Assembly: GCA_949130485.1 (NCBI GenBank)
Contig: OX422190.1
Span: 9,263,944 to 9,327,943, forward strand
DNA from: Agelas oroides
Taxonomy: Eukaryota > Porifera > Demospongiae > Agelasida > Agelasidae
DNA: 64,000 bases
Direction: 5' to 3'
A model generated the notes under the pieces. The model had not been told where the DNA came from. It searched no databases and saw only the letters and a program-made list of their open reading frames with translations. This document shows, piece after piece, positions 1-24,861 of the stretch (position 1 is the first letter of the stretch; every line of letters begins with the position of its first letter). Made by a program: the position numbers and the translations under genes.

Positions 1-228
1 GTACTTCTTTGTTACAACGACAACCAGCGCCTTGCAGTCGCGCAGAGCGATTCTGATCGCTAGCACCGGCTTTTCCGTCCCGGCTGTTATGTCTTCTTTG
101 TCTAGCCAAACGCTCAGTTGCGCGCCTTCCAAGCCTCTCTTCAGTTTTCGCACAAACTCATTCACTGTATCCTCTCGATCGTAGCTGACAAACACGTCTT
201 TGCCAGCCCTAAACCTACTGACTGACAT
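1..228 (-). CDS. TIR-domain protein, first exon, cut by left window edge
   Basis: Read from an ATG at 228-226 leftwards, this is 76 open codons without a stop. It encodes the N-terminal half of a TIR domain: the box-1 strand with the core VFVSYDRED, then helix A, then the BB-loop region WLDKEDITAGTE, then the second strand ending in VTKKY. It is clearly paralogous to the TIR exon at 23818-24304, with one extra residue after the BB loop. TIR domains act as adaptors or as NAD-cleaving enzymes; the candidate catalytic Glu of this family lies beyond the window edge, so activity cannot be judged. The start codon is less than 200 bp from the first exon of the divergent PNP-like gene on the plus strand. 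Confidence 0.85.
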   Translation of the reverse strand, partial: MSVSRFRAGKDVFVSYDREDTVNEFVRKLKRGLEGAQLSVWLDKEDITAGTEKPVLAIRIALRDCKALVVVVTKKY

Positions 229-415
229 TTTCAAGTTTTGTTTACTGAATACTGTATTGTTCCATGAAAAATTGACACAGGATTCGCTCGCTCCACCCAC
301 AGAGGCGCGGTTCAGAGTCGATCTTGGTAGTTCAGCATATTAAATTTTCGTTGTCAGTTACCACTTTTCACTGCTTGTGCAGGCCTACAGGGTCGTTTTT
401 TAACTGCCTGAGTCA
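229..415. promoter_or_regulatory. Short intergenic region between divergent TIR and PNP genes
   Basis: The start codons of the minus-strand TIR gene (228) and the plus-strand PNP gene (416) are only 187 bp apart, so this stretch must hold 5'UTRs and probably a shared promoter. Its right part (about 320-415) is similar to the sequence before the relic exon at 8042, including a polypyrimidine tract and AG at 380-382, so part of it is probably an intron plus a 5'UTR exon. No clear TATA box is seen. Confidence 0.45.
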
Positions 416-3750: not shown

Positions 3751-4535
3751 ACACGCTATTTACCAGTAGTGCCACATGCAAAGTCTGCTATATCTGTCTT
3801 CAATACTGCCATTGTTTTTGAGTATTTCAGACACCAGACTACAATGCCAGCAGTGGTCAGCTAGCTAACTGTGCATGGGCGAGAGTTCAGAGAGACTGAA
3901 TTTCAGGATGGATTGAATTGATTGACCAATGTGCAGTTAACGGTATCCAGAACATAAAGGGCTTTAAAATGGGATGTTTCAAAACATAGGCAGACATACA
4001 GACTCCAGAAACAGCTGAAATTTAATACAATAGTGACTTGTACTTCACACAAACAATATTTGGCTCCTGGAAAATAGTAAACAACTATGACAATACTTCA
4101 TAATGTTTCACACACAATAGCTACATTGTCTTAGTGAGTTCAGGTGGCACACTGTCCTTTCCGAAGGATGCCCTGCTGCTCGGCCATTCAAAAACTCTCC
4201 TACACTAGTTACCTTTGTGTGTGGCAACCAGAGCTTTATGACCTCATAGCTACTTGGTGTCTCCTATCTGATAATAAATGAGTGATGTCAGAAGGGAGGT
4301 GAAATTTGGTTTTCATCTAGGAGAGTAAAATTCCTAATCCCCATGCATATCATAAGAGTTGGGTCCAGTGTTGGTGTTGTATAGCTAAGTACCATAACAT
4401 GCAGGAGCATAAGAGCAGATTTGTTGTTGAAGTGATCGCATGAGCACAGTTTTCTGTAGAAGTGAATGTATAGTCACCAAGTGTCACAAAGTACTGAGAT
4501 GGGCAATAATCAAAGCTGCTGTGGAATGTACTATT
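3751..4535. other. Intergenic stretch without recognised gene
   Basis: AT-rich, with stops in all frames. No splice-consistent coding block or repeat family was recognised. Confidence 0.5.
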
Positions 4536-4616
4536 GTATTTGCAAGCACATGTTTTGCCTACCAACAAATCATCACTATCTTGTGGTTCATTATCACTTC
4601 AATACCTTACATAGTC
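4536..4616 (+). promoter_or_regulatory. Upstream block shared with the NB-ARC gene
   Basis: This block starts with GTATTTGCAAGCACATG and contains TTTGCCTACCAAC and TTCATTATCACTT. The reverse strand of 13295-13372, upstream of the NB-ARC gene, carries the same words in the same order. It lies about 420-500 bp before the CARD start codon. It is duplicated promoter sequence, or at least a duplicated 5' flank. Confidence 0.7.
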
Positions 4617-4643
4617 GTTTTTCCTACGTTGCGTATGGTTTTG

Positions 4644-4651
4644 TATAAAAG
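4644..4651 (+). promoter_or_regulatory. TATA box of the CARD-PNP gene
   Basis: The sequence TATAAAAG lies about 30 bp before the start of a likely 5'UTR exon that ends at 4766 (donor GTAAGT at 4767). The UTR intron would end at the AG at 5028-5029, just before the ATG at 5036. Confidence 0.55.
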
Positions 4652-5035
4652 GGCAACTGTTTGTGTGCTAGTTCATCCGCAGTTCAAACATCGAGAACAT
4701 CGCTGTGATTATACCGCGTCCAGTGTTACATCAATATCCGTGCAGGCGCCACCGAATCACTCCGCAGTAAGTCCACGAACATAGTCGTAGCTTCGTATGG
4801 CACAGTGCGAAGGTAGTGCCGGTGAGAAACACGTATTTGCATGCTTACGCTGAAGATAGACGATATGTAAGGCAATATTTTTTGTGATTCTATTGCTACT
4901 GAAGTTAGATATCTTATGCTGCAAGTGATGTAGCCATAGAGACTTACTCATATGCTAGATACTATGTGTAACTGTGTAGAGATTGTGTGTGCTTTGTCAC
5001 GGTACTGCTCCCTTCTCCAATCTGTACAGGACTGA

Positions 5036-7219
5036 ATGGCTCACGCTATTGAGGAGTTTGCCAATAAAATTGCTCTGGCAATCCAGGGAAATCTCACCAT
5101 TATTGCTAACGACCTGAAATGGAAAGACCTGCTCGGTGACGAGGACTATGGCAAAATTGTGAACACCCCAGCCATCTCTCAACTTCAAAGAGCTAATGAG
5201 CTAGTCCAATGTGTCTCCAGACAGGTCCAGATAGACCCAGGGCAGTATGAAGTCTTCTATGGTGTTTTAGAGAAGCATCGCAATCTACAAGTCTTGCTGA
5301 AGAAATTACCAAAACCAAATGATGAGCCATGCTGCACTGCAGGTCTGTTGTGCTAGTTAGCTAGCTAGTGAACCAGTGGATGTGCAATCTTCTGCTAACT
5401 AGTATACCAGTTTATATCTAACAGTAATTGCGTTTCTAACACTGCACAATACTTGCCAAGGTGTGAGCAATATTTGATTTCGTGGAGTGTCTGTTGAGCT
5501 CTGTCATTTTTCATTCACTTTAAAGGTGGTGGTGAACAGCTGGCTGAGTCAAAGACTGGTTCTCAACAACCTGGACAGCCATTCCAACCTGAGCCTGAGT
5601 TGCCTGGTAAGTTAAAACATCAATGGTAGGGGGCTATAACATCTGAGACATGCCAACCCCGTGTGCCTTTGGTGTGGCAATACAATAGCACTTCCTGCCT
5701 CCATTTGTTAGTCCCATCTTCTTTACTGCAGCTGGTGTCTTTTGTGTGTTTAATGTAAACTGCATGTATAAAATTTAATAGTGGGTGGACTTTTGAAATC
5801 TAGAAAGAGGTGAGGGCTTAGTTTCAGAGATCACTTTAGTGCAAGATCCACTGATTGTGTTCATTAGAATCAAGAATCTATCATGGTCCAGCCTCATTGT
5901 TTCAATCCAAGTATTTTGTCAGGACCAAAATCACTATGACAAAGAGGGTTGGCCAGGCTTAAAAATTATAGTAGTGGTAAAGTCTTCAATATGATAAGAC
6001 AGTGATTGTGTTTTCTTTACAGAAGATACTTCAAAGCCAAAGTTTGCTGCCAATGATCGTGAAAGCATAATGAAGGAAGTCAATCCTGCCATTCTACACA
6101 TTCAGCGGAGAGACAAGGCCACAATGAAAGCCGTGGAATTGTTTGCAAGACAAGTGGTGGTTATTCTCCATACCTGCAATGACAACGAGTATTGGGCAGC
6201 ACTTGAGAGGCTGGAACCACCAACTGCAGAGGATGGGAGTAACATTCGAGATTATGCTGTCAAATACCCAGGGACACCTTCAGTAATTGGGTGGTTTGGA
6301 GGTTACAGGACAGCTGTTGTGAGGACTGAACAGGGGAACAAATGTCGTATTGAGCTTACAAAAGCCCTTACTAAATCGTTTCCAAATGCCCAAGTAATCA
6401 TTGGAGCTGGTATAGCATACGCCAACAACCGAAAACGCAAGTTTGCAGATGTCCTCATTTCAGACCAGATAGAAAACTTTGTGCAGTACAAGAAAGAAGG
6501 AGACAAAATCACAAACCGTGGCCCACGTGTGGAGATTGACCCAAACGTACAGAGAGTTTTTAAGAAACCAGCAGGTGATTGGACAAGCATCAGACCTTTC
6601 CATTGTGCAGAAGATGGCCGAACATCGGTTGCTCACACTGGTTGTATCGTCAGTGCCCCAACACTTGTTCGAGATGAAGTGCTGAAGGAACAATTAATGA
6701 AACACACTCCGGATTGCATTGGTGGTGAAATGGAGGGGTGGGTTCTCCTTGAGATGAAGAGGGAACTCTCTCAGTATAAGAAAAATGTCGAAGTCATCGT
6801 CATAAAGAGTGTTGCTGACTATGGTGACCGTAAAAAGGGAGATGATTGGCAGTGGACTGCTGCCAAAGCAGCTATGGATTGCATCCATTACTGCCTTGAG
6901 ACAACCGGAGGCGGGGAGTTCAGTGGTGAGGAAGCTTTCTCTATAATACATAATATAGATAAAATATTGACGACAACAACCAACATGAATTCCAGTAAAA
7001 TAGGATACCCTACTTAACCATAGTTACTTGACTGCTCAAGAGGGGTATAATAGCATAGGTTGAAAGAGCCTGCTAGACCATGAAAAAAACTTCTAGTTAC
7101 ATAATTATGTATGGCAACATAAACTTTATGTCAACTATCTTCCTACATGCACAATCATTCATGCAGCCATTGATATTGCGGAGAAAGAAGCTGAGTATGA
7201 AGAACAGAAGAAGAACTGA
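5036..7219 (+). CDS. CARD-like domain fused to PNP-family enzyme domain
   Basis: Exons 5036-5342, 5526-5606, 6023-6925 and 7167-7219, all joined in phase 1, give about 447 aa. Residues 1-100 form a helical CARD-like domain (cores GNLTIIANDL, LLGDEDYGKIVNTP, YEVFYGVLEKHRNLQVLL). It is the same domain as the first exon of the NB-ARC gene at 12718-13018. A Gln/Pro-rich linker (about 103-145) leads to a PNP_UDP_1-type domain with IIGAGIAYANN, GGEMEGW (Glu365, Glu367) and SVADYGD (Asp395). The last exon adds a charged tail ending EEQKKN. The expected role is an immune or cell-death effector recruited by CARD-CARD contact; the substrate is not readable from sequence, although ATP or another nucleotide is plausible from the bacterial effectors. 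The ancestral CARD-exon donor is mutated, so splicing has shifted downstream by 23 bp. Confidence 0.85.
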
Positions 7220-8041
7220 TAGAACCATTGTAAAGATTTTCTAGAAAGACCTAGTATATGCTACTTACCAAACATGGTCTTTGTATTATTCATAATTTGG
7301 TCGTATATTGCATACGGTATATGCACAGTGAATTCACATTACACAATCATGCATCTGTTGTATGACATGCCATGTGCCGGTATAGTGTGCACAAAAGTTG
7401 TAGCAGTATCTAGTAAAAAAAGAGGGGAAGGAAGCAAAGTTTGTGACAACAATTTCAAAATGACCAAAAATTACAAAAGCAAAAAAAATTTCTTTTCCAG
7501 GTCCTCTACGTTAACACATGCCCTTCACTCTTGACGCATGCAATACGCATGAGTCAGCACGCACGCGCTAGGAATACTGACGTGGGTTGTTTCAAACACA
7601 GCCGTTTTGTAGTGCACACGAGTTTGCTGCTCACAAGATAGCAAATGACAATTAAGTTTTGCACCCACTGACCCAGCAGGATCCAGTTGGTAGAAGTGAG
7701 TCACATCACAAAGTAAGTCTCATGTATTAAATTAAATTGTTCTCTCCTGCATAGTCTCATGGAAAACGAAGAAATTCACAGTGCTTCGCATTTACAAAGA
7801 TGTAGGCATGCAGGTTATCAGCTGGTTGCAATCAACTTCAGCAACAACAGCAGGGCTAGTGTTTGCTTGCCACACCCACACAGAAAGGTCTGGTGTAGAT
7901 AATTGCTAGTTCAGCAGTTCATTGTTAGTATTAGCCCAAGCAAACACTTCGTGCATGGCAGTTCAGCATTTTGTTGTTATTCAATACCAATTTTCAGTGG
8001 TTGTGCAGGTCTACAGGATCATTTTTCAACTGCCTGAGTCA
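7220..8041. other. Spacer; 5' flank of relic PNP copy
   Basis: No coding block. The part from about 7905 to 8041 resembles the sequence before the first PNP gene (about 300-415), so it is the duplicated promoter/5'UTR of the relic copy. Confidence 0.5.
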
Positions 8042-8220
8042 ATGGCTGTTTCTCAACAACCCAACTTATCTGGTAAGTTAGGATACTGATGATGTTGATG
8101 GTTTAGCTGTATCCTACATTTTTCACAGTACTGTCAAACATTTAATACCAACTTCTTTGTGCATGCACACTCACTCCTTTAGCCAATGACATTGTGAAGA
8201 GAGAAGCAGATATTATGTAA
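8042..8220 (+). pseudogene. Exon-skeleton relic of a third PNP gene
   Basis: Two exon-like pieces remain. 8042-8072 is an ATG exon encoding MAVSQQPNLS plus one base, with donor GTAAGT; it resembles exon 2 of the CARD-PNP gene. 8183-8220 is the terminal exon after TTTAG, encoding NDIVKREADIM and a TAA stop. Spliced in phase 1 they would still give an open 22-residue peptide. The ~900 bp enzyme exon between them is gone. Most likely this is a deletion derivative. Confidence 0.6.
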
Positions 8221-8917
8221 AGGATTTATACACTTAAATCGTAGTATTAGACTAATTTCGTGATCTTTTGTGTTTGTTTTACAGATACCGGTACATACAG
8301 TATTTTACAGTTATTGAAGGGCATGTATCTTAAAATTGCTAACATCTTCTCATTTAGTGCATGAAGTGCAACACTATCGCACGAGTTAGTCACACAAAAC
8401 TTGGCACATGTCATTTCTTGCTTCTGTAGTCTTCATGCGCTTTGACCTTGATCCAGTTGCTCTCATTTCACTGCAGTACTTGCTGATCACAGATGAGGTA
8501 TGGGGAGATAATTGGTTGGAGACAGTTCAGACTGGTTTCCTGTTGCAAAAATGCTTGCTTGTTACACCAGCCTAGTCAAGACTACCGTAGCTCCGCCATG
8601 TATCATTCAACAGTGCATGGAAGTGCAGTGAACAGAGAAAGTCAGCCTCATTCCCAACTATATAGGCCTTCCCTGCCTCCAGTTGTTGATCACTTGCAGT
8701 ACACTGGAGGTAGAGATGGCCTGGAAATGAGGCTAGAGAGAGTACCCAGGCTCTTACAGGCAATCTGTAATCTTATACTGGAGGAATGTTTATCTTGATG
8801 TACAAAAAGAAGCTTGTTCTGTTGATGCAATACCATGGCAACGAAAACGAAAATGTAAAGTTTTGAATCTGATAAGCTAAAAGATGTATATATATGTACA
8901 AATATATGTATATATGC
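8221..8917. other. Convergent spacer with degenerate hairpin repeat
   Basis: Lies between the 3' ends of the PNP cluster (plus) and the NB-ARC gene (minus). About 8644-8745 has weak inverted ends related to the TTCCCAGGC MITE family (ATTCCCAAC and GGAAATGAGGCTAG). No gene is seen. Confidence 0.4.
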
Positions 8918-11900
8918 TCATAGAGTGTGTTTTTGACGGCAGCATAGCCAAGTATAGCTGCCCAAACTACCAGTATAACTACCAACTATAACTACAAAAA
9001 AGATTGCTATGATGGTCAGTAAGCCTCTTAAATTACTCCTACAATATGTGTAGATTAGTGATGTTGACTCTTCAGAGTATACTTCATGGTTACACCACCT
9101 AGTGTTAGTGAAGTATGGTGACTGTCTTTCAAAGTGGTGTCCTAACACACGATTTAGAACTCTCGCCAGTGTTGTTGTTTCCTTTGAGCTTAAGCTGCTG
9201 TAGAATGCTGCCAGAATCTTACATGTTTGGTAGTTCTCTGAGGATATTGTCATACATTCTTGATCCAGTATCCACGCAGTGGAATGATCTGGTGGGTGTT
9301 CATTGTAAAGAATAGACATGGTAGTTGAGTTTTTGTGGTCTGTGGCATTAATTGTCTTTATTGAAGAAAACTTCGAAAGAAAGCGATCTTTTGTAAGAAG
9401 TTCTGAAGCCTTTTGGACTTCTTCAAGGTTCGTGTAGGAAACATGGAGTAGTATAAACAGCTGAACTCTCCTGTTGCCTCGCAGTGTCCTAGACTGTAAC
9501 AGACCTTCCAGATGCTCTGCTGACTCTTCATAGTCTCCTTCTCCAAAATGTGCTAAAGCCAAGTGGGTAGAGTTACAGTGTTCTTGATTGCACTGTGCCA
9601 GGGACCATTTCAGTTGGAGAATTTCCTTCCAGCTTTCTAGGAAGAGGTCAAATCGTCCAAGATCAATATAGTTGTGTGCAAGGGTTGAATGATACTTGGT
9701 ATATATCTGAAGCCTTGTTGCATCCTTGGAGCCATTTGCTGTTGGATACAAATATACTTGAATTATTCTGCTGTGTCTTGATTGTAACATGTGTATAGCA
9801 TGTTCTTTGCCATGAACAAGAGCTTCTAATTTGCTAAGGCGAACAAGCAACTTCACATAAGTCATGAGCCACATGTGCAATCCTTTCCGCACTGAGACAA
9901 GCTTGAAATCTGCGACAAAGTGCACTACCCCTTCCTGTCCAATTGTAATCCCCATTGATAGGGCCCGATGAACATCACCATTCAGAAAGTATGAACGCCA
10001 TTGTTGTAGTAGTTTTATAAACGCATCTGTTGTTACTGAAGTGGGATGGTTACCATCTACTCGATGCAGCTTCATAATCTGAAGAACTCTCGTTGCTCGA
10101 TGTAGTTTCATCATCTGAAGTGCCCAGCGTTTCTTCAGCAGAGAATTTCTGACACTGCTAGAGTGTGAGTAGAGTGTATCGCAACTGTGTAGAACATTTA
10201 ATACAGCATCTATTCTAGTACTCGTGATTCTTGTGATAATTTCTAATTCAGTACTTGTAACCGTCTCAAGCATGTGATCATAAATAAGATCAATGTTTGG
10301 CCGTTCTAAATCCAAAAAGTTGAACAGCTCAAGTATGCCATTAGACTTTGCTTTAAAAGCAAGTGTTCCATAGTAAACTCTAAAGCGATAAAAGAATAGC
10401 TTTTGGTTATCAGATTGACCTGATATGCGAGTAAAAAACTCCTTAATAAGTGGCTGAAACCTATATCGACGAGTGTGAGCATTGTACTCAAGTAAAGACT
10501 TGTAGTAAAGTTCTCTTAAACACTTGGAAGAATCCGGCACCAGTTGACCTTCCAAGATACCTTGGATTGCGTTTTCATCAAAAGATGCTGGAAAATTTGC
10601 TATGAGTCTTCCACATTTCTGGTGTTCAGGACTGAGGTAGTGATACGAAATATTGAGTCTTGTAAAGATACGTTCTGTAGACGGAAGTTGTTCTGGACTC
10701 AACGCAAGTATAGGATCTCTTCTGAGGTCATGAGCTATTGTAGATGGGTCTACTTGCAGCAGTAAGGACCCAACCACTTCTAGTGCTAGTGGAACATTTC
10801 CCACCAAGCTGGCAATTTCCAGAGCCATTGTTCTATTCAGATTGTTGCTCAGTTTCAGAAGTACATTTGTGGCAGACTCTGGTGATAGCTCTTGGACAGT
10901 GAAATTTCTAAAAGGACCAAGGAAAGATGCCCATTGTCGTACAGTAAGCATCACTTTTACTAACTGCGACTGTCTAACAAGGGTCTTCATCAATTTCTGA
11001 AACGCATCTTTGTTTCTGTGGAGTAGCTCGTCACAGTTATCAATGATCAAGAGTGAAGGGACTTCCAGCTTGCTAGCCCATATGAAAAGGTAGTCACTAG
11101 TTTGTCTCTTCTCACCGAGGACGAGGAAGGTCAATTTCTCCTTGAAAGTGGGAATATCGTGTACCTCATGGAGATCAACATAGTGTACGGCTACTCCACC
11201 CAGTTCTGTGACCATGTGACCCACGTGAATAGCTAGGGTTGACTTACCAACCCCTGGTGAACCAACAACGCTGATGATGCTAATCGTGGAAGAGTTTCCA
11301 ATCCAGTCAGTTAATATTTCTACCTCAGCTTCTCTGCCAACAAACACCTCTTCTTCCAAAACCACTGGCAGCATGTTTGAAGGGTAGACTGGTTGAGACA
11401 CGTACCACTCAATGGCCAATGCGAGGATGATGGGTATGAAGACCAAAGCTATCAAATACATGATTTGTCCTTTGCCCTTTCCTATAAATGGCAGATGGAA
11501 AAAAAACATTAGCAAGGTTTATCCTACAAGATACTAGACATAATTATAATGTGTTACTGCATGCGGCACAATTGCTGCAATTTAGTTATTTTAGACTTAT
11601 AGTCGGGCACAAAATGAATGCACAGATTGGTTTCCAATGTAAGCATATGGAAAGAAGGTTATCCTATAGGGTCACAGTGCCTCTATATGGTACTATAACA
11701 CAGCCTCATGGAGGAGGAGGATGGCCTGTCTCTAGAGCCACCTACATGTTTCTGTGCATGCTATGCGTGTGAAGTGAGCCTGGAAACACCTAATATAGCT
11801 AAAGGCTAAGTCTTGTGCATTCTGTTTATTGTAAAACATGCAGCAGCTAGCTTGCTATACACTGCATTCTCACTGGGTGTGGTCTATCCTCATTCCCAGG

Positions 11901-13018
11901 CCTCCCCCATTTTTGTTCTTCGGTTTGCATTCAGTATAATACACAGAAGCGGAAGAATGGCAATTTCCACCACTCTTCCACTTCCATGCATGTATTATCA
12001 AATTGAAGAACAAACGGGGGAGGCCCGGGAACGAGGCTAGGTGTGGTCAGCAACATCATGGAGTGGTAGCAAATACCTACTACCAAAGGCTAAGTCTCAC
12101 ACTCTGAACAACTAACTAAAAGCACACAAAACATGAGCACCATTATAGCTAGCGAGGCAGTATCTACTACACAGTAGTCTTGCTAGATGTGGTCTGCAAC
12201 ATCATTGGAAGAAAGTACCTGGAGGAGGATTAGGAGGTGCAGGTTGTTCTTCACTCTCCTCATCTTCTCCATCCACTGCTGTAAAGACAACAATGCACAA
12301 GATGAAGGGGAGAACAGGTACTAGTAAACATGCAAATGTGGCAAGCACACAGGTATCTGGTAACAATTGTGCCTAACTTCTAGGCCAGGCAACTCAGGCT
12401 GTTGAGAAACAGTCATATAGACTCAGCTGTCTGTGCATCACTACATTCACAAAATGATATAGGGTTCATGCACTGAACAGAATTGTCAATCTGTTTATGC
12501 AATCATAGACAGTAGAGTATAGTATCAGTGATCCAAATATGCATGAGTAGTGTATGTACCTTGGCAAGTAGAGTTGTTGGATCAATTAGCATGCACAGAC
12601 TATCAGACATAAACTGGTATTGTAGTTAGCGATGTTACACAGCTACGTACTCATAATATAATGCATGGTTCACTTAGCCTAGCTACAGAGATACGTATGC
12701 ATTGCATCATGGCTCACCATTTGGTTTCGGTATTATCTCTAGCAAGAACTGTAGATTTCGATGCTTCTCCAAAACACCATAGAAGACTTGATACTGCTTT
12801 GGGACTATCTTGACTTGTCTGTAGACACACTGAACTAGGTCATTAGCTCTTTGAAGTGGAGGGGTGGCTGGGGTGTTCACAATTCTATCATAGTCCTCGT
12901 CACCGAGCAGTCCTTTCGATTTCAGGTTGTTAGCAATAATGGTGAGATTTCCCTGGATTGCCCTAGCAATGTCATTGGCGTTCTCATCAATAGCTTTCAC
13001 TTGAAAAGAAACATCCAT
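8918..13018 (-). CDS. CARD-TM-NB-ARC-TPR STAND protein
   Basis: Exons 13018-12718, 12278-12219 and 11481-8918, both junctions phase 1, give about 974 aa. Residues 1-100 are the CARD-like domain (core GNLTIIANNL, LLGDEDYDRIVNTP). An acidic/proline linker precedes a hydrophobic segment at about 127-148 (LIALVFIPIILALAI), predicted to span a membrane. The NB-ARC follows: Walker A GSPGVGKS (194-201), Walker B LLIIDNCDE (Asp268) and the GxP motif GNVPLALEVVG. The long helical remainder has TPR-like spacing. A second hydrophobic segment lies near 940-958. NB-ARC ATPases oligomerise on ligand sensing and expose an adaptor domain; Apaf-1 is the closest functional analogue. The start codon follows a probable UTR acceptor (CTGCACAG). 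It faces the CARD-PNP gene tail to tail. Confidence 0.85.
11885..12039. mobile_element. MULE-like MITE with 9 bp target duplication
   Basis: The inverted ends begin TATCCTCATTCCCAGGCC on the left and, on the reverse strand of the right end, TAGCCTCGTTCCCGGGCC. Perfect 9 bp direct repeats GGTGTGGTC flank it (11876-11884 and 12040-12048). The interior is also nearly self-complementary (TTGTTCTTC ... GAAGAACAA). It sits in an intron of the NB-ARC gene. Confidence 0.85.
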
Positions 13019-13294
13019 TTTTCTCCTGTGCAGATTGGAGAGGTAAGCAGTTGATCACGGCGACCGTCCAGCTTTATTCTTGCCGCCAGGGAGCCTGAAA
13101 ATTCTGGACTCTCCGAAGACTTCACCTGTCACCACTGAGTACGCGCTACGTTTGTGTGAACTGACGGCAGAGTCGAAATGATCCCGTGGACCGGACGTGG
13201 TAACTTTCTCGATGTTCTTGATAAACTAGCTAGCACACGCAATAGGAAACCATACATGGCTAATAGTTGATATTTAAAACATTTAAAGTATTAA

Positions 13295-13372
13295 AGTGAT
13301 AATGAGCCCAAAGATTAGTGATAATCAGTTGGTAGGCAAACCATGTGCTTGCAAATACAATTAACCAACGTC
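13295..13372 (-). promoter_or_regulatory. Upstream block shared with the CARD-PNP gene
   Basis: Read on the minus strand, it carries GTATTTGCAAGCACATG, TTTGCCTACCAAC and CTCATTATCACTTT in the same order as 4536-4616. It lies 280-350 bp before the NB-ARC start codon. The CARD-bearing duplication therefore included 5' flanking DNA, which suggests shared regulation. Confidence 0.7.
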
Positions 13373-20621: not shown

Positions 20622-23600
20622 CTGCATCTCACAAACATGCACTCCTCTCACACACACACACTACCTCCATGAACTCACACACACACACACTCACCAACTC
20701 TTCCCTAGGAATCTCAAACAGACACTTATCATCACACGACAGTGACAGGACGGCACACTGCAGAAGCATCTCCTGGTCGTCTTGTGACAGCTGAATCCTC
20801 TTGATCGCAGCTGCTATCTCGTTTGACACATGCCAGACTATAATACACGACCCCTCGTACACCCCGTGCAAGCTCATCGCTGGTTTTGGTGTTCCTGTAA
20901 CTGTTGCTACGACATTCTTGACACAGCTGTACATCCAGCTGGCTATCTGGGGACAGTCAACCTTCGCGATAAGAGAGGCCCTGTTCAGAGGAAGCTTATT
21001 GCAACAGCCAGGGTGGAAGTGGAAGCATTGCAAGCATTCATTTGATTCAGGATCTGGAGCCGATGACTGTTTTGGTTGCTCAGTAACCGGTTCATCGACC
21101 GTAATAACCACCTTTTCGTTGTTTTGTTGGACAATGTCAGATTGAGGTACGAGATCGGCGTCTGCACATTGCGGTGGAGCGCTGCTATTTTGTGATGATG
21201 TTTGCTGAACTTGGCAGGCATGTTTTGTACCTTTTTCGGTGTCATCAACTTTGCAAGCTTTCTCATCACCGTCAAACTTACAAGCTTTCTCATCACCCTC
21301 AAGCTTGCATTCATTATCCCCAACTTTGCAAGCCCTCTCTGTATCCTGAAATTTGTAAACTTTCTCTTGAGGCAGACAATCCTGGGACAGATTCGAAAGT
21401 TCACAGGCCTTTTCGTTCTGTGGTGAAATGGCAAATCTTTTGAGTTGCCTGCCTGTTGTCTGTTGAGGGGAACCCCCCAAACGATTTCCTCCTTTTGCCA
21501 TCTCAGAGGAAGAACCGACTGTCAGCTCTCTCGGTCTTGAATCACTGCTACTGCCTTGGCAAGGTGACTTGAAAGGAGCTTCTGGACACTTTTCAGTGGG
21601 GATAGTCAACCCACGATCTCTGTTCCGGAGAAAATCATTGAGTATCTTCATTGCCTCCTCATTCTCAGTTGACTCAATCAGTGTTACCAGGAGATCATGA
21701 TCATCATAGCAATTCCAGTACTTCGCCATGACTGTGAAGAATTCCGTCACAGTCTGTGTGCCCCGGTGCACCTCAGGTTCAATGGCGATAGATTCATCCT
21801 GTCCCTTCAAGGTCGCAAGAGCTAGCTTCATGGAAGCCAACACATCAGCATCTGATTCTGGGTCTTTACTGAGTATTCTGCTCAGTTTGCCGATGAGTTT
21901 CACAAACTGGCGACATTGTGGGGGCATGCGTTTCGGTTTCTTCTGTTGTGGTTCCTGCTTTGTGCTATCGCTGGGGACTGATGTCGGAGGGGCCACTTCA
22001 GGTGGAGTTGATTTGCGTCCTACAAGGTTCTCTTCAAGACACACATTGAAGCACACACAGAGAGAAAGACAAAATTCTCAAGTGGGGTGAACGAAAGTTT
22101 GGCAAGAAAAACTTACCCCTCTGGGCCATAACCCCCCCTTGCTCTTCTCTAATCAACAAAAAAGTCATTTGAGTTGAAGAAGGCAGCGCAACATACTGTA
22201 TGGCAAGAAATTTTTGCGGGACAAAATTTTCGCGGATTGGCCGCTGGCAAAGATTTCGCGAAAATTTTGCGGTTAAAATTTTCGCGGTCTGAGGCAAATC
22301 CGCGAAAACCACGAAAATTTTGTCCCACGAAAATTTCTCGCCATACGGTACTCTCCCACATGCATTGTGCACTTCTGATTACATTTCAACTACTGAAGTA
22401 GAATCACCAGCTATAGTATTGTATGACGTGCAGACTTTTCCACTGGAACCAGACAAATGCTCCAAGAACAAGGAGGAATGACAGCTGGTGGTCTAAAGCT
22501 TACCTCACAGTACCCTCTGAGTAAATTTCATTTCAAACAATCTAAGGGCAGTTTTCTAAATTGATTCACTATGGGCCTGTATCACAGCTCGTATGATTAC
22601 ATTTACATGTAACTACCTTGCATGTACCACTAATTCCTAGCGTCCAACCTTGTTTGACTCCTCCCACCCCCTACTGAATAAACTGTTGACTACATTCCAG
22701 CTACTGAATATCTGATAAGCTACCACACAAACACTGTATCTATACTTTGTATGCTGGGGAATACCAATGCAACTGATTGGACAAGGGTCATTGAACAGTT
22801 ACCATAAATGGTATCTTGTTACTGTGTTGCCACATTGGTTTACTACATGTCACAGCTATCAATCTGACATCCAGGAACATTGACTGGAATGATCGGAATG
22901 TGAGGCAGTTCACTAACTAGGAAGGGAAAACAGCAAACAGTGGGATGAGGGGGAGATAGCGTGGAAGCTGCTGCCCAGAAAATTTAAGTGTCTCAGTTTT
23001 GAGACTATGTAGACCACTTGAGTAAAAAAATTTTTACCACAGCCCAACGCCCATCTAGAGTAGATACAGCAGGTACTGACTTACCGGTGGGTGGGGTTGG
23101 TTGTGCCCAGCTCCGGTTAGGTGGCTCAATGTTGGGGGTCGGAGGTTGTCCCGTGAGTGAATCTGAAGGTAGCAGAGCAGAGCTGCTATAAAGATGAGGA
23201 AGCACTAACTCACTTGTTTGCTTGCAAAGTTCGAACTCTGCAAATAAAACAAATTTCAACATTTGAGCCTTAGGCTTTTCTTCAGAAGAACAAGTGTTTC
23301 CTGTTGGTCCCTATAGATGAGGGTTCTGATGGCACATACAAGGTGGCTGCTTTTTATACCCAGTTCACTGGTTGCAGCAAAAAGTACTTTGGTACTCATC
23401 CTGCAGAGTTAAATACCAAGACTAAGCAAAATCCAGCTTGAGAATCGAACCGTGTCTATGGCCATCTTTCCTCAGCTCCAATGCCAGAGCTCCAGGCTCA
23501 GTTGGTAAGAGCCTCTGACTGGAATTCAGAAGGCCCAGGTTTAAATTAGTCTCGCAAGCCAGACCCTTTCTGTTCTGCAGTGTCGCTCGCTTTCAGTATG

Positions 23601-24304
23601 CAGCACGTGCCGCAAGCGAACGGCACTGTGGAATGGAAAGGGTCTGACTTGCGAGACCAGGTTGGAATCCTGGCTGGATTCTCAATGTCTTTTTTCGCCA
23701 AACAAAAGATCTATATCCTTTACAAAGCATAGCTGTAGTCTCACAAGCAACACCCCTCGCAAAGGGTGTGGCTTGCGAGACTATACATGTAATTACCAGC
23801 GTAAAAACATGTCACACCTTGCTTCTTCAGATCATCAACTGGTCTCTGCAGTGGCCGTCCGAGACGTCCCTTCAGTCCAGCAATCAGCCTCTGTATCGCC
23901 GAGCCGTAGTCGTCAGTGGGGAGAAAGGTCACCCAGTTGCTGGCGGCTGTCATGTATTTGACGCCCTCGCACTCCTTATCTACAGACACATCCCAGCCTT
24001 CCTCGCGTATGACTGGGAAAATTGGCTTCTGATTCGTACACGCAACGTACAGCTCGCTTTTACAGAAGCGTGAAGAGACGTATTTCTTTGTTAGGACGGC
24101 AATGAGTGCCTTGCACTCGCTCAGAGCGATGCCGATCGCTAACGGCCATTCCGTCCCGGCCGGTATGTCTTCTTCGTCTAGCCAGACGCTCAGCTGCGCA
24201 TCTTCCAAGTCTTTCTTCAGTTTACGCACAAACTTCTTCACTTCGTCCTCTCGGCCGTAGCTTAAAAACACGTCTTTGTTGGTTCCATACTTACTGACTG
24301 CCAT
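20008..24304 (-). CDS. TIR-domain multidomain protein
   Basis: Exons 24304-23818, 23237-23085, 22031-20695 and 20094-20008 (junction phases 1, 1, 0) give about 687 aa. Residues 1-150 form a full TIR domain: VFLSYGRED, BB loop WLDEEDIPAGTEW, and FCKSEL with Glu84 at the place of the catalytic Glu of NAD-cleaving TIRs. A linker exon is followed by a helical region (256-355, cores FVKLIGKLSRIL, LVTLIESTENEEAMKIL). Next come short Cys repeats of the type E-K-A-C-K (about 420-486). A C-terminal domain (about 580-687) contains GVYEGSCIIVWHV, which resembles the middle of the NLR gene at 60.5 kb. It may act as a signalling adaptor or NADase. The last exon is short and its assignment rests on phase and borders only. 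Confidence 0.75.
20182..20437. mobile_element. Fold-back MITE with 6 bp flanking repeat
   Basis: The ends are TGGCAGTCCCATGTAGAAAT and its inverted copy ATTTCTATACGGGACTGCCA. The arms continue almost to the centre (ATGAATATCTAATGAAT). Direct repeats CAAGTG flank it (20176-20181, 20438-20443). It lies in the last intron of the TIR gene. Confidence 0.8.
20538..20619. repeat. (CA)n microsatellite
   Basis: About 80 bp of CA, in the last intron of the TIR gene and shortly downstream of its exon 3 donor GTGAGTGTGTG. Confidence 0.95.
22194..22350. mobile_element. MITE, TA-flanked, GTATGGCAAGAAATTTT ends
   Basis: Inverted ends of about 45 bp, with TACTGTATGGCAAGAAATTT on the left and the reverse complement TACCGTATGGCGAGAAATTT on the right, rich in TTTTCGCGG. 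The ends coincide with TA dinucleotides, as in Tc1/mariner-like insertions. It is in an intron of the TIR gene. Related copies lie at 26136-26349 and 58240-58448. Confidence 0.85.
23485..23690 (+). repeat. tRNA-like SINE head split by a hairpin element
   Basis: GGCTCAGTTGGTAAGAGCC (box A) and the start of box B (CCCAGGTTTAAAT) lie left of a hairpin at 23550-23662; GGTTGGAATCCTGGCTGGAT resumes on the right. Undisturbed relatives lie at 33583-33655 and 47797-47868. Confidence 0.65.
23550..23662. mobile_element. Hairpin MITE with TAGTCTCGCAAG ends
   Basis: The inverted ends are TAGTCTCGCAAGCCAGACCC and the reverse-strand TGGTCTCGCAAGTCAGACCC. Imperfect 9 bp direct repeats (GGTTTAAAT, GGTTGGAAT) come from the duplicated SINE box B. 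A related pair of ends is at 23736-23784. Confidence 0.7.
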
Positions 24305-24861
24305 TTCTTATCTGTTTGTTTTGCTGATGGTGGTACACCCACACATCACTCATCAGTGCAGATGACCACGCCCATGCACTGTTAGTCAGCCACGCCCCCT
24401 CCCTCACTGGACCGTGCATGTGTGTGCTGCACGAACGCGGAGGATTTCAGCCTGTGTATATCTTTACTGCCTAAATAGAAGTGCCAGACCGTACATGCAT
24501 ACAGGTAACCAGCCACCAACCTAGCTGGGGGAGCTCTGCTGGCTAATTTAATTATGAGCAGGCTGGCATGCAGTGTATGTCTGTCAGCTACAGGCCTAGC
24601 TGCTTTTGTCTTTGTAAATCCTTTACAATCTTACACACATATAACCATACATTTTCTGAAGTACAAAAAAATGCTTTGGTGTAGAAATAAGTACATATTA
24701 AAGTGTAGTACCAAGTGATTTTCAAACAGAATAAAAGTTACTGCATACTATAGCTCCAGCTCCTGGAGGTAGGGAACAAGGGAAACATAACAAGCCAATA
24801 CTACCACAAAACTTTGCTTCTCTTGGTCACTGTTGAATATTTAATTTACACATGGAACATA

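Follow-up and report, generated by a model that had tools for sequence, protein, structure and literature searches.

Do a sensor and an enzyme that lie next to each other and begin with nearly the same CARD exon form a signaling pair? The question is posed by two convergent genes in a 64,000-nucleotide (nt) stretch of the genome of the sponge Agelas oroides (GenBank assembly GCA_949130485.1, contig OX422190.1, positions 9,263,944 to 9,327,943; hereafter the window, with coordinates counted from its first letter). One gene, here called CARD-PNP, would encode a nucleosidase-like enzyme of the PNP superfamily, and the other, CARD-NB-ARC, a putative STAND ATPase; the original prediction likened them to caspase-9 and Apaf-1. 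As judged from their sequences, both first coding exons derive from a single CARD cassette, copies of which are dispersed in the genome.

An inverted duplication at the start of two genes

The first coding exons of CARD-PNP and CARD-NB-ARC form an inverted duplication. The shared exon tract (5045-5341 on the + strand versus 12994-12698 on the - strand) is 86.5% identical over 297 nt (E = 2e-99), with its start 9 nt into the exon of CARD-PNP and its end 20 nt beyond the splice donor of the NB-ARC copy, and 72 of 95 aligned residues of the encoded proteins are identical (76%). A block of upstream flank is shared too (4533-4612 on the + strand versus 13361-13281 on the - strand; 86% over 81 columns, E = 3.9e-20). 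These values reject chance similarity, and the duplication of exon and flank is confirmed where it had originally been placed. Splicing of both genes is inferred, every exon join being predicted from sequence: CARD-PNP is modeled with four exons, GT-AG introns in phase 1, and 447 amino acids (aa), and CARD-NB-ARC with exons at 13018-12718, 12278-12219, and 11481-8918, also in phase 1, and 974 aa. Both predicted reading frames are open. The first protein would consist of a CARD, a flexible linker, and a nucleosidase of the PNP/MTAN superfamily, and the second of a CARD, an acidic linker, a membrane-type helix, an NB-ARC STAND ATPase, a long C-terminal part, and a hydrophobic tail. The parts of the two genes, and a second PNP copy in the window, are as follows.

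4533..4612 (+): upstream block of CARD-PNP, common to 13361-13281 (-) and, in part or whole, to six other CARD loci
4640..4766 (+): TATA-like stretch and, ahead of a GTAAGT donor at 4767, the inferred 5' untranslated region (UTR) exon of CARD-PNP; copies on C2 are similar
5036..5342 (+): CARD exon of CARD-PNP, with the family donor changed to GATGAG and CAG/GTCTGT at 5343 serving in the model instead
5526..5606 (+): Gln/Pro-rich linker exon of CARD-PNP
6023..6925 (+): PNP/MTA-nucleosidase-like enzyme exon, with EMEG and VADYG motifs
7167..7219 (+): short final exon of CARD-PNP, with the stop codon
13281..13361 (-): upstream block of CARD-NB-ARC, lacking the TATA-like stretch
12718..13018 (-): CARD exon of CARD-NB-ARC, with a G/GTGAGC donor
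12219..12278 (-): acidic/Pro linker exon of CARD-NB-ARC
8918..11481 (-): NB-ARC exon: a membrane-type segment, then NB-ARC (P-loop GSPGVGKST), then a long C-terminal part that matches TPR weakly; close to the C-terminus lies another hydrophobic segment
990..1877 (+): second PNP copy, with no CARD-family exon found in the upstream DNA examined

The shared exon had been described as CARD-like, and modeling bears this out: a six-helix death-fold bundle of the CARD type is predicted, and the Apaf-1 CARD is the best structural match of the model among 270 chains compared with VIA-align. Against the Pfam CARD profile, the NB-ARC copy scores 13.8 bits (curated cut-off, 23.9) and the CARD-PNP copy has no match; 4 of 13 family members match the CARD profile at E values up to 1, the best being 0.0011. 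A profile search with the family brings up CARD11 only at an E value of 1.1, and profile-profile comparison with the Pfam-positive CARDs of the same genome and with its Death-type frames gave nothing significant.

A flank and a CARD exon that travel together

Searching the genome with the CARD exon returned 17 rows, corresponding to 14 close loci (one split over two rows, with a stop in one) and two distant ones. When 261 nt of the flank were searched for, eight places emerged, the query included, and all eight lie upstream of a same-strand CARD-family exon, at distances of up to about 2.6 kb (more than 2 kb at two of the eight). CARD copies precede Kelch coding at L009 and L014 and VIT-VWA coding at L018, to which they would be joined by splicing; these are the 3 of the 12 other close loci at which the coding after the CARD exon was identified, the remaining nine having been inspected through open frames alone, in about 1.5 kb (with 4 kb more at L012). 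On this evidence the promoter block in the flank and the CARD exon travel together as a dispersed cassette, of which the window pair is two of many copies.

In the exon, DNA identity is 84.5% within the window pair versus 69.5 to 77.8% to the ten other copies compared, and the exon tree groups the two copies with an ultrafast bootstrap of 99. The CARD-PNP flank is closest to two copies on C2 (L012 and L013; 84 to 86% over about 250 to 300 nt), and flank quartets favor joining it to C2: with L017 as outgroup, the groupings PNP+C2, PNP+NB-ARC, and NB-ARC+C2 receive 8, 1, and 5 with L012 and 7, 0, and 6 with L013, and with L015 as outgroup, 8, 1, and 1 (L012) and 6, 0, and 1 (L013). Gene conversion limited to the exon and acting between inverted neighbors is suggested by this pattern, although not shown. 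The best flank tree places the PNP copy with L015/L017 (support, 58) and not with C2, and a flank tree joining the PNP and NB-ARC copies is rejected by its resampling estimated log-likelihood (RELL) proportion (0.03), but not by the Kishino-Hasegawa (KH) and Shimodaira-Hasegawa (SH) tests; with an approximately unbiased (AU) p value of 0.068, we rejected a claim of proven conversion. A similar contrast between flank and exon would arise if the NB-ARC promoter had decayed faster. The CARD appears to have come to be shared after the enzyme copies had split, because the synonymous divergence (dS) is 0.23 for the CARD pair and at least 0.35 for this PNP against the 15 others measured.

It is quite possible, if not the explanation that we favor, that these similarities reflect proximity and not pairing: the cassette spreads by duplication and gene conversion, the two window copies are alike as inverted neighbors, and the CARD proteins with which CARD-PNP signals may be others, or it may have no particular partner. 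The number of close CARD loci, the presence of a CARD exon after every flank, and the CARDs before Kelch and VIT-VWA coding are all consistent with such an origin, as is an exon that groups with NB-ARC beside flank quartets that point to C2, which exon-limited conversion would produce. However, the flank conflict is weak, with RELL alone rejecting, the best flank tree joins the PNP copy elsewhere than to C2, and conversion is compatible with pairing, both frames being open.

Several findings weigh against a private pair. The eight places of the flank in the genome, each before a CARD exon, lead us to reject a pair-specific promoter. Co-regulation is weakened as well, since a TATA-like stretch kept in the CARD-PNP and C2 copies is missing from the NB-ARC copy. 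The conserved adjacency that would be expected of a pair was not found: among 23 PNP loci, only that of CARD-PNP has a CARD-family exon in its flank (searched with a CARD profile over about 1.5 kb upstream, and over 6.4 kb more upstream DNA for the second window copy). On C2, the PNP and CARD-family exons that come closest after these are separated by about 18 kb, with the CARD downstream, and no second CARD-sensor/PNP pair was found in this genome within the flanks examined. Among the 12 copies whose splice donor was examined (of 13 full-length), 10 have G/GTGAG and one has G/GTGAA, CARD-PNP alone having GATGAG. The ratio of nonsynonymous to synonymous divergence (dN/dS) of the CARD pair, 0.69, is not significantly below 1 (p = 0.24). 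Finally, the membrane-type segment predicted in the sensor (see below) would, as a single span, put CARD and NB-ARC on opposite sides of a membrane, a point that any apoptosome-like model has to address. CARD-PNP probably does not belong to its NB-ARC neighbor alone, and it may also be recruited by further CARD-family proteins.

Could the CARD before PNP instead be a decaying or nonfunctional insertion, with the enzyme made without it by exon skipping or from another promoter? Because the family donor is lost, the CARD-PNP fusion would rely on a substitute, CAG/GTCTGT, which lies 21 nt downstream, keeps frame and phase, and is presumably weaker. Loss of the donor in this copy alone, its longer branch in the exon tree (0.12 versus 0.07 for the NB-ARC copy), the nonsignificant dN/dS, and other PNP copies without such a CARD in the flank examined are all compatible with decay. 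We nonetheless consider it unlikely, as the exon retains 97 stop-free codons, the in-frame, phase-1 substitute donor leads to a complete 447-aa protein, and the promoter and 5' UTR region is 84 to 86% identical to the C2 copies.

The enzyme, the sensor, and their surroundings

The partners named in the original prediction, an NB-ARC/STAND protein and a PNP-superfamily enzyme with its catalytic residues kept, encoded by neighboring genes, are supported. For the enzyme, a profile of 20 PNP copies matches MTA/SAH nucleosidase structures with an E value of 1.9e-7 (positions 98-286), and EMEG and VADYG align with the nucleosidase ME and SD motifs, which we take to carry the catalytic Glu and Asp; E238 and D266 are present in at least 90% of the 20 copies and in both window copies. 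The match over most of the domain and these residues place the enzyme in the MTAN branch of the PNP/UDP phosphorylase superfamily. Against PF01048, the window copy scores 23.7 bits, just below the cut-off of 25.1, and a copy on C17 scores 26.9 bits, above it. Among PADLOC profiles, that of the PN-superfamily effector is matched partially (residues 211-293, E = 1.4e-7) and PDC-M60C is matched over residues 131-302 (E = 2.7e-10), and there is no peptidase match in the Pfam scan or in the comparison of the profile with solved structures. A structure model from the two window copies was unusable (predicted local distance difference test score, 35), and a search for bacterial relatives by back-translated patterns gave 57 pattern matches, none confirmed. 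The PNP exon occurs at 23 loci in the genome at E values below 1e-30 (three or more of these loci being broken or split), together with two degenerate fragments, and the two window copies show significant constraint (dN/dS 0.41, p = 2e-6). That the enzyme is metabolic, an MTA/SAH or purine nucleosidase and not an immune effector, would agree with its best solved relatives and best NCBIfam matches, all MTA/SAH nucleosidases though the latter lie far under the cut-off (28 versus 260 bits), but is improbable for a family that occupies 23 loci in a single genome, matches profiles of anti-phage effectors, and has a broken copy beside Death coding and TIR coding beside five copies, features that make it look expanded and immune-like.

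As to the surroundings of the PNP genes, TIR-domain coding at window 1-231 (-) and the second PNP copy are arranged head to head, and this arrangement is repeated at four other PNP loci (L025, L027, L037/L048, and L039) among those examined for TIR; these TIR/PNP repeats probably arose by recent segmental duplication. A further TIR exon lies at window 23741-24307 (-). At 7985-8209, a match to a linker exon (89% to 359-422) and one to a last exon (81% to 2346-2402) occur with the enzyme exon missing, likely a relic of a third PNP gene. Locus L046 (C22:6972839-6976093) carries a broken PNP copy followed by a same-strand Death domain and then NACHT-like coding (judged by eye), and here, too, PNP neighbors a death-fold gene that looks NLR-like. 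Two C17 PNP copies (L026 and L032) are preceded by open frames of 292 to 326 aa that are 82% alike, that at L026 having no Pfam match. Other long open frames lie at window 20629-22077 (-), with no Pfam match, and at 3871-5247 on the - strand of L080, their likeness being judged by eye only. Two short tandem pieces at 2615-2855 resemble the start of the NB-ARC exon (42 nt at 86%) and are too short to call; since they extend over only about 40 nt, with no protein match at an E value of 0.01, an ancestral duplicated PNP/NB-ARC unit was rejected.

The NB-ARC protein scores 33.5 bits against AAA_16 (cut-off, 32.6) and 23.7 against NB-ARC (cut-off, 23.5) over 44 residues, and among structures in the PDB it matches AfsR and plant NLRs at E values of 1.5e-4 to 0.009, identifying it as a P-loop NTPase of the NB-ARC/AAA type within the NB-ARC/STAND class. 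The Pfam scan found no LRR and no WD40 match and only a weak TPR, and the protein is not an NLR in the sense of NACHT plus C-terminal LRR. Its NB-ARC exon is found at 18 loci, counted from 28 genome-search rows. A hydrophobic, putatively membrane-type segment (mean Kyte-Doolittle value of at least 1.97 over 19 residues) precedes NB-ARC in all 11 relatives examined, the window copy included. A second segment (above 2.0) is found near the end of the examined frame at 7 of 11 NB-ARC loci, some frames being cut by the locus end and the exon start having been checked for the window copy only. Upstream of NB-ARC there are CARDs over the Pfam cut-off at four loci (L054, L056, L057, and L055, the last at C12:7365897). 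In this position L064 has a Death domain, and L058 matches the CARD family weakly, a match missed by Pfam. A CARD followed by a membrane-type helix and NB-ARC is likely a recurrent design in this genome.

Recruitment by like CARDs and its known relatives

What stands of the private sensor-effector pair is the shared CARD fold, the types of the partners, and their adjacency; the specificity of flank and CARD to the pair is not supported, and recurrence of the adjacency was not found within the flanks examined. The reading that we favor, while stopping short of calling it probable, is CARD-mediated recruitment of the nucleosidase by a membrane-anchored STAND protein, in which the NB-ARC neighbor is the most likely partner, though not the sole one. 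The NB-ARC protein would be a membrane-anchored sensor, activation of which would lead to oligomerization and clustering of its CARDs; CARD-PNP would be drawn into this assembly by virtue of its near-identical CARD; and its enzyme domains, once crowded, would switch on and cleave a purine nucleoside or nucleotide. Our best guess for this substrate, from the parallel with PNP immune effectors, is ATP. A bolder version, which we regard as doubtful, is an animal 'nucleotide-depleting apoptosome': the membrane-anchored CARD-NB-ARC sensor would nucleate a CARD assembly that switches on the CARD-nucleosidase, infected cells would be killed or stalled by loss of purine nucleotides, exon-limited gene conversion would keep the CARDs of the pair alike, and the repertoire would have arisen as the promoter-plus-CARD cassette spread to proteins of the sensor, enzyme, Kelch, or VIT-VWA kind. 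If true, the homotypic CARD logic of apoptosomes would govern a bacterial-type PNP effector in an animal, and animal circuits would be seen to be built by copying one exon with its promoter before new proteins. Compact as it is, the CARD-PNP/CARD-NB-ARC pair lends itself to testing, and with a membrane-type segment lying between CARD and NB-ARC, one may ask whether sensing takes place across a membrane.

In Apaf-1/caspase-9 and CED-4/CED-3, a CARD-NB-ARC sensor acts with a CARD-bearing enzyme, and the CARDs of Apaf-1 and caspase-9 pair by charge complementarity. The parallel drawn originally holds for this logic, and the Apaf-1 CARD is the top fold match, but the effector here is a PNP-like nucleosidase and not the CARD-bearing protease of an apoptosome, the CARDs are near copies, and the sensor has a membrane-type segment between CARD and NB-ARC and no WD40 match. 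In work by Rousset in 2023, Detocs and eukaryotic PNP effectors reportedly cleave ATP. The window enzyme resembles these as a PNP-superfamily effector in an immune-like architecture, whereas Detocs, with three genes, is a two-component system from bacteria, and the substrate of the window enzyme is only presumed. PNP effectors that cleave ATP are described in two reports (PMC12881547, PMC11249213).

The near-identical CARDs predict like-with-like co-assembly, not charge-complementary pairing, and for this reason the pair may be closer to fungal pairs of the NWD2/HET-S type than to Apaf-1/caspase-9. In those pairs, an NLR and an effector encoded by adjacent genes share one amyloid motif (PMC5485727). 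As modeled, the window genes are likewise adjacent and carry the same, presumptively self-assembling, motif, although it is a helical CARD in place of an amyloid and the effector is a PNP in place of a HeLo pore former. Among sponges, Dysidea avara is reported to have CARD-bearing and transmembrane NLRs (PMC12909245); the window sensor agrees in CARD and membrane segment, but those are NACHT-LRR proteins and it is an NB-ARC/STAND protein without an LRR match.

Closest in composition are systems in which death folds meet PNPases, as presented in one source (PMC8195603). In bacterial conflict systems, death-like domains (bDLD3) are fused to PNPase, NPCBM, or caspase in neighboring genes, some linked to AP-ATPases; they resemble the window in a death-fold adaptor common to neighboring proteins, a PNPase among the effectors, and a STAND ATPase in the wider set, whereas the window has a CARD, exon-built animal genes, near-identical copies in sensor and effector, and no operon. 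The same source describes animal Death-superfamily/TRADD-N proteins with a C-terminal PNPase, which likewise join a death fold and a PNPase in one animal protein; the window protein has a CARD only, with a twin CARD on its neighbor, and no TRADD-N was noticed in the window proteins by Pfam, the only search made for it. The original remark that no described animal pathway with such a pairing was known thus needs qualifying: we found no description of CARD-PNP paired with CARD-NB-ARC among the open-access titles, abstracts, and passages searched, but the combination of death fold and PNPase is already known, and CARD-PNP with CARD-NB-ARC would be a further form of it.

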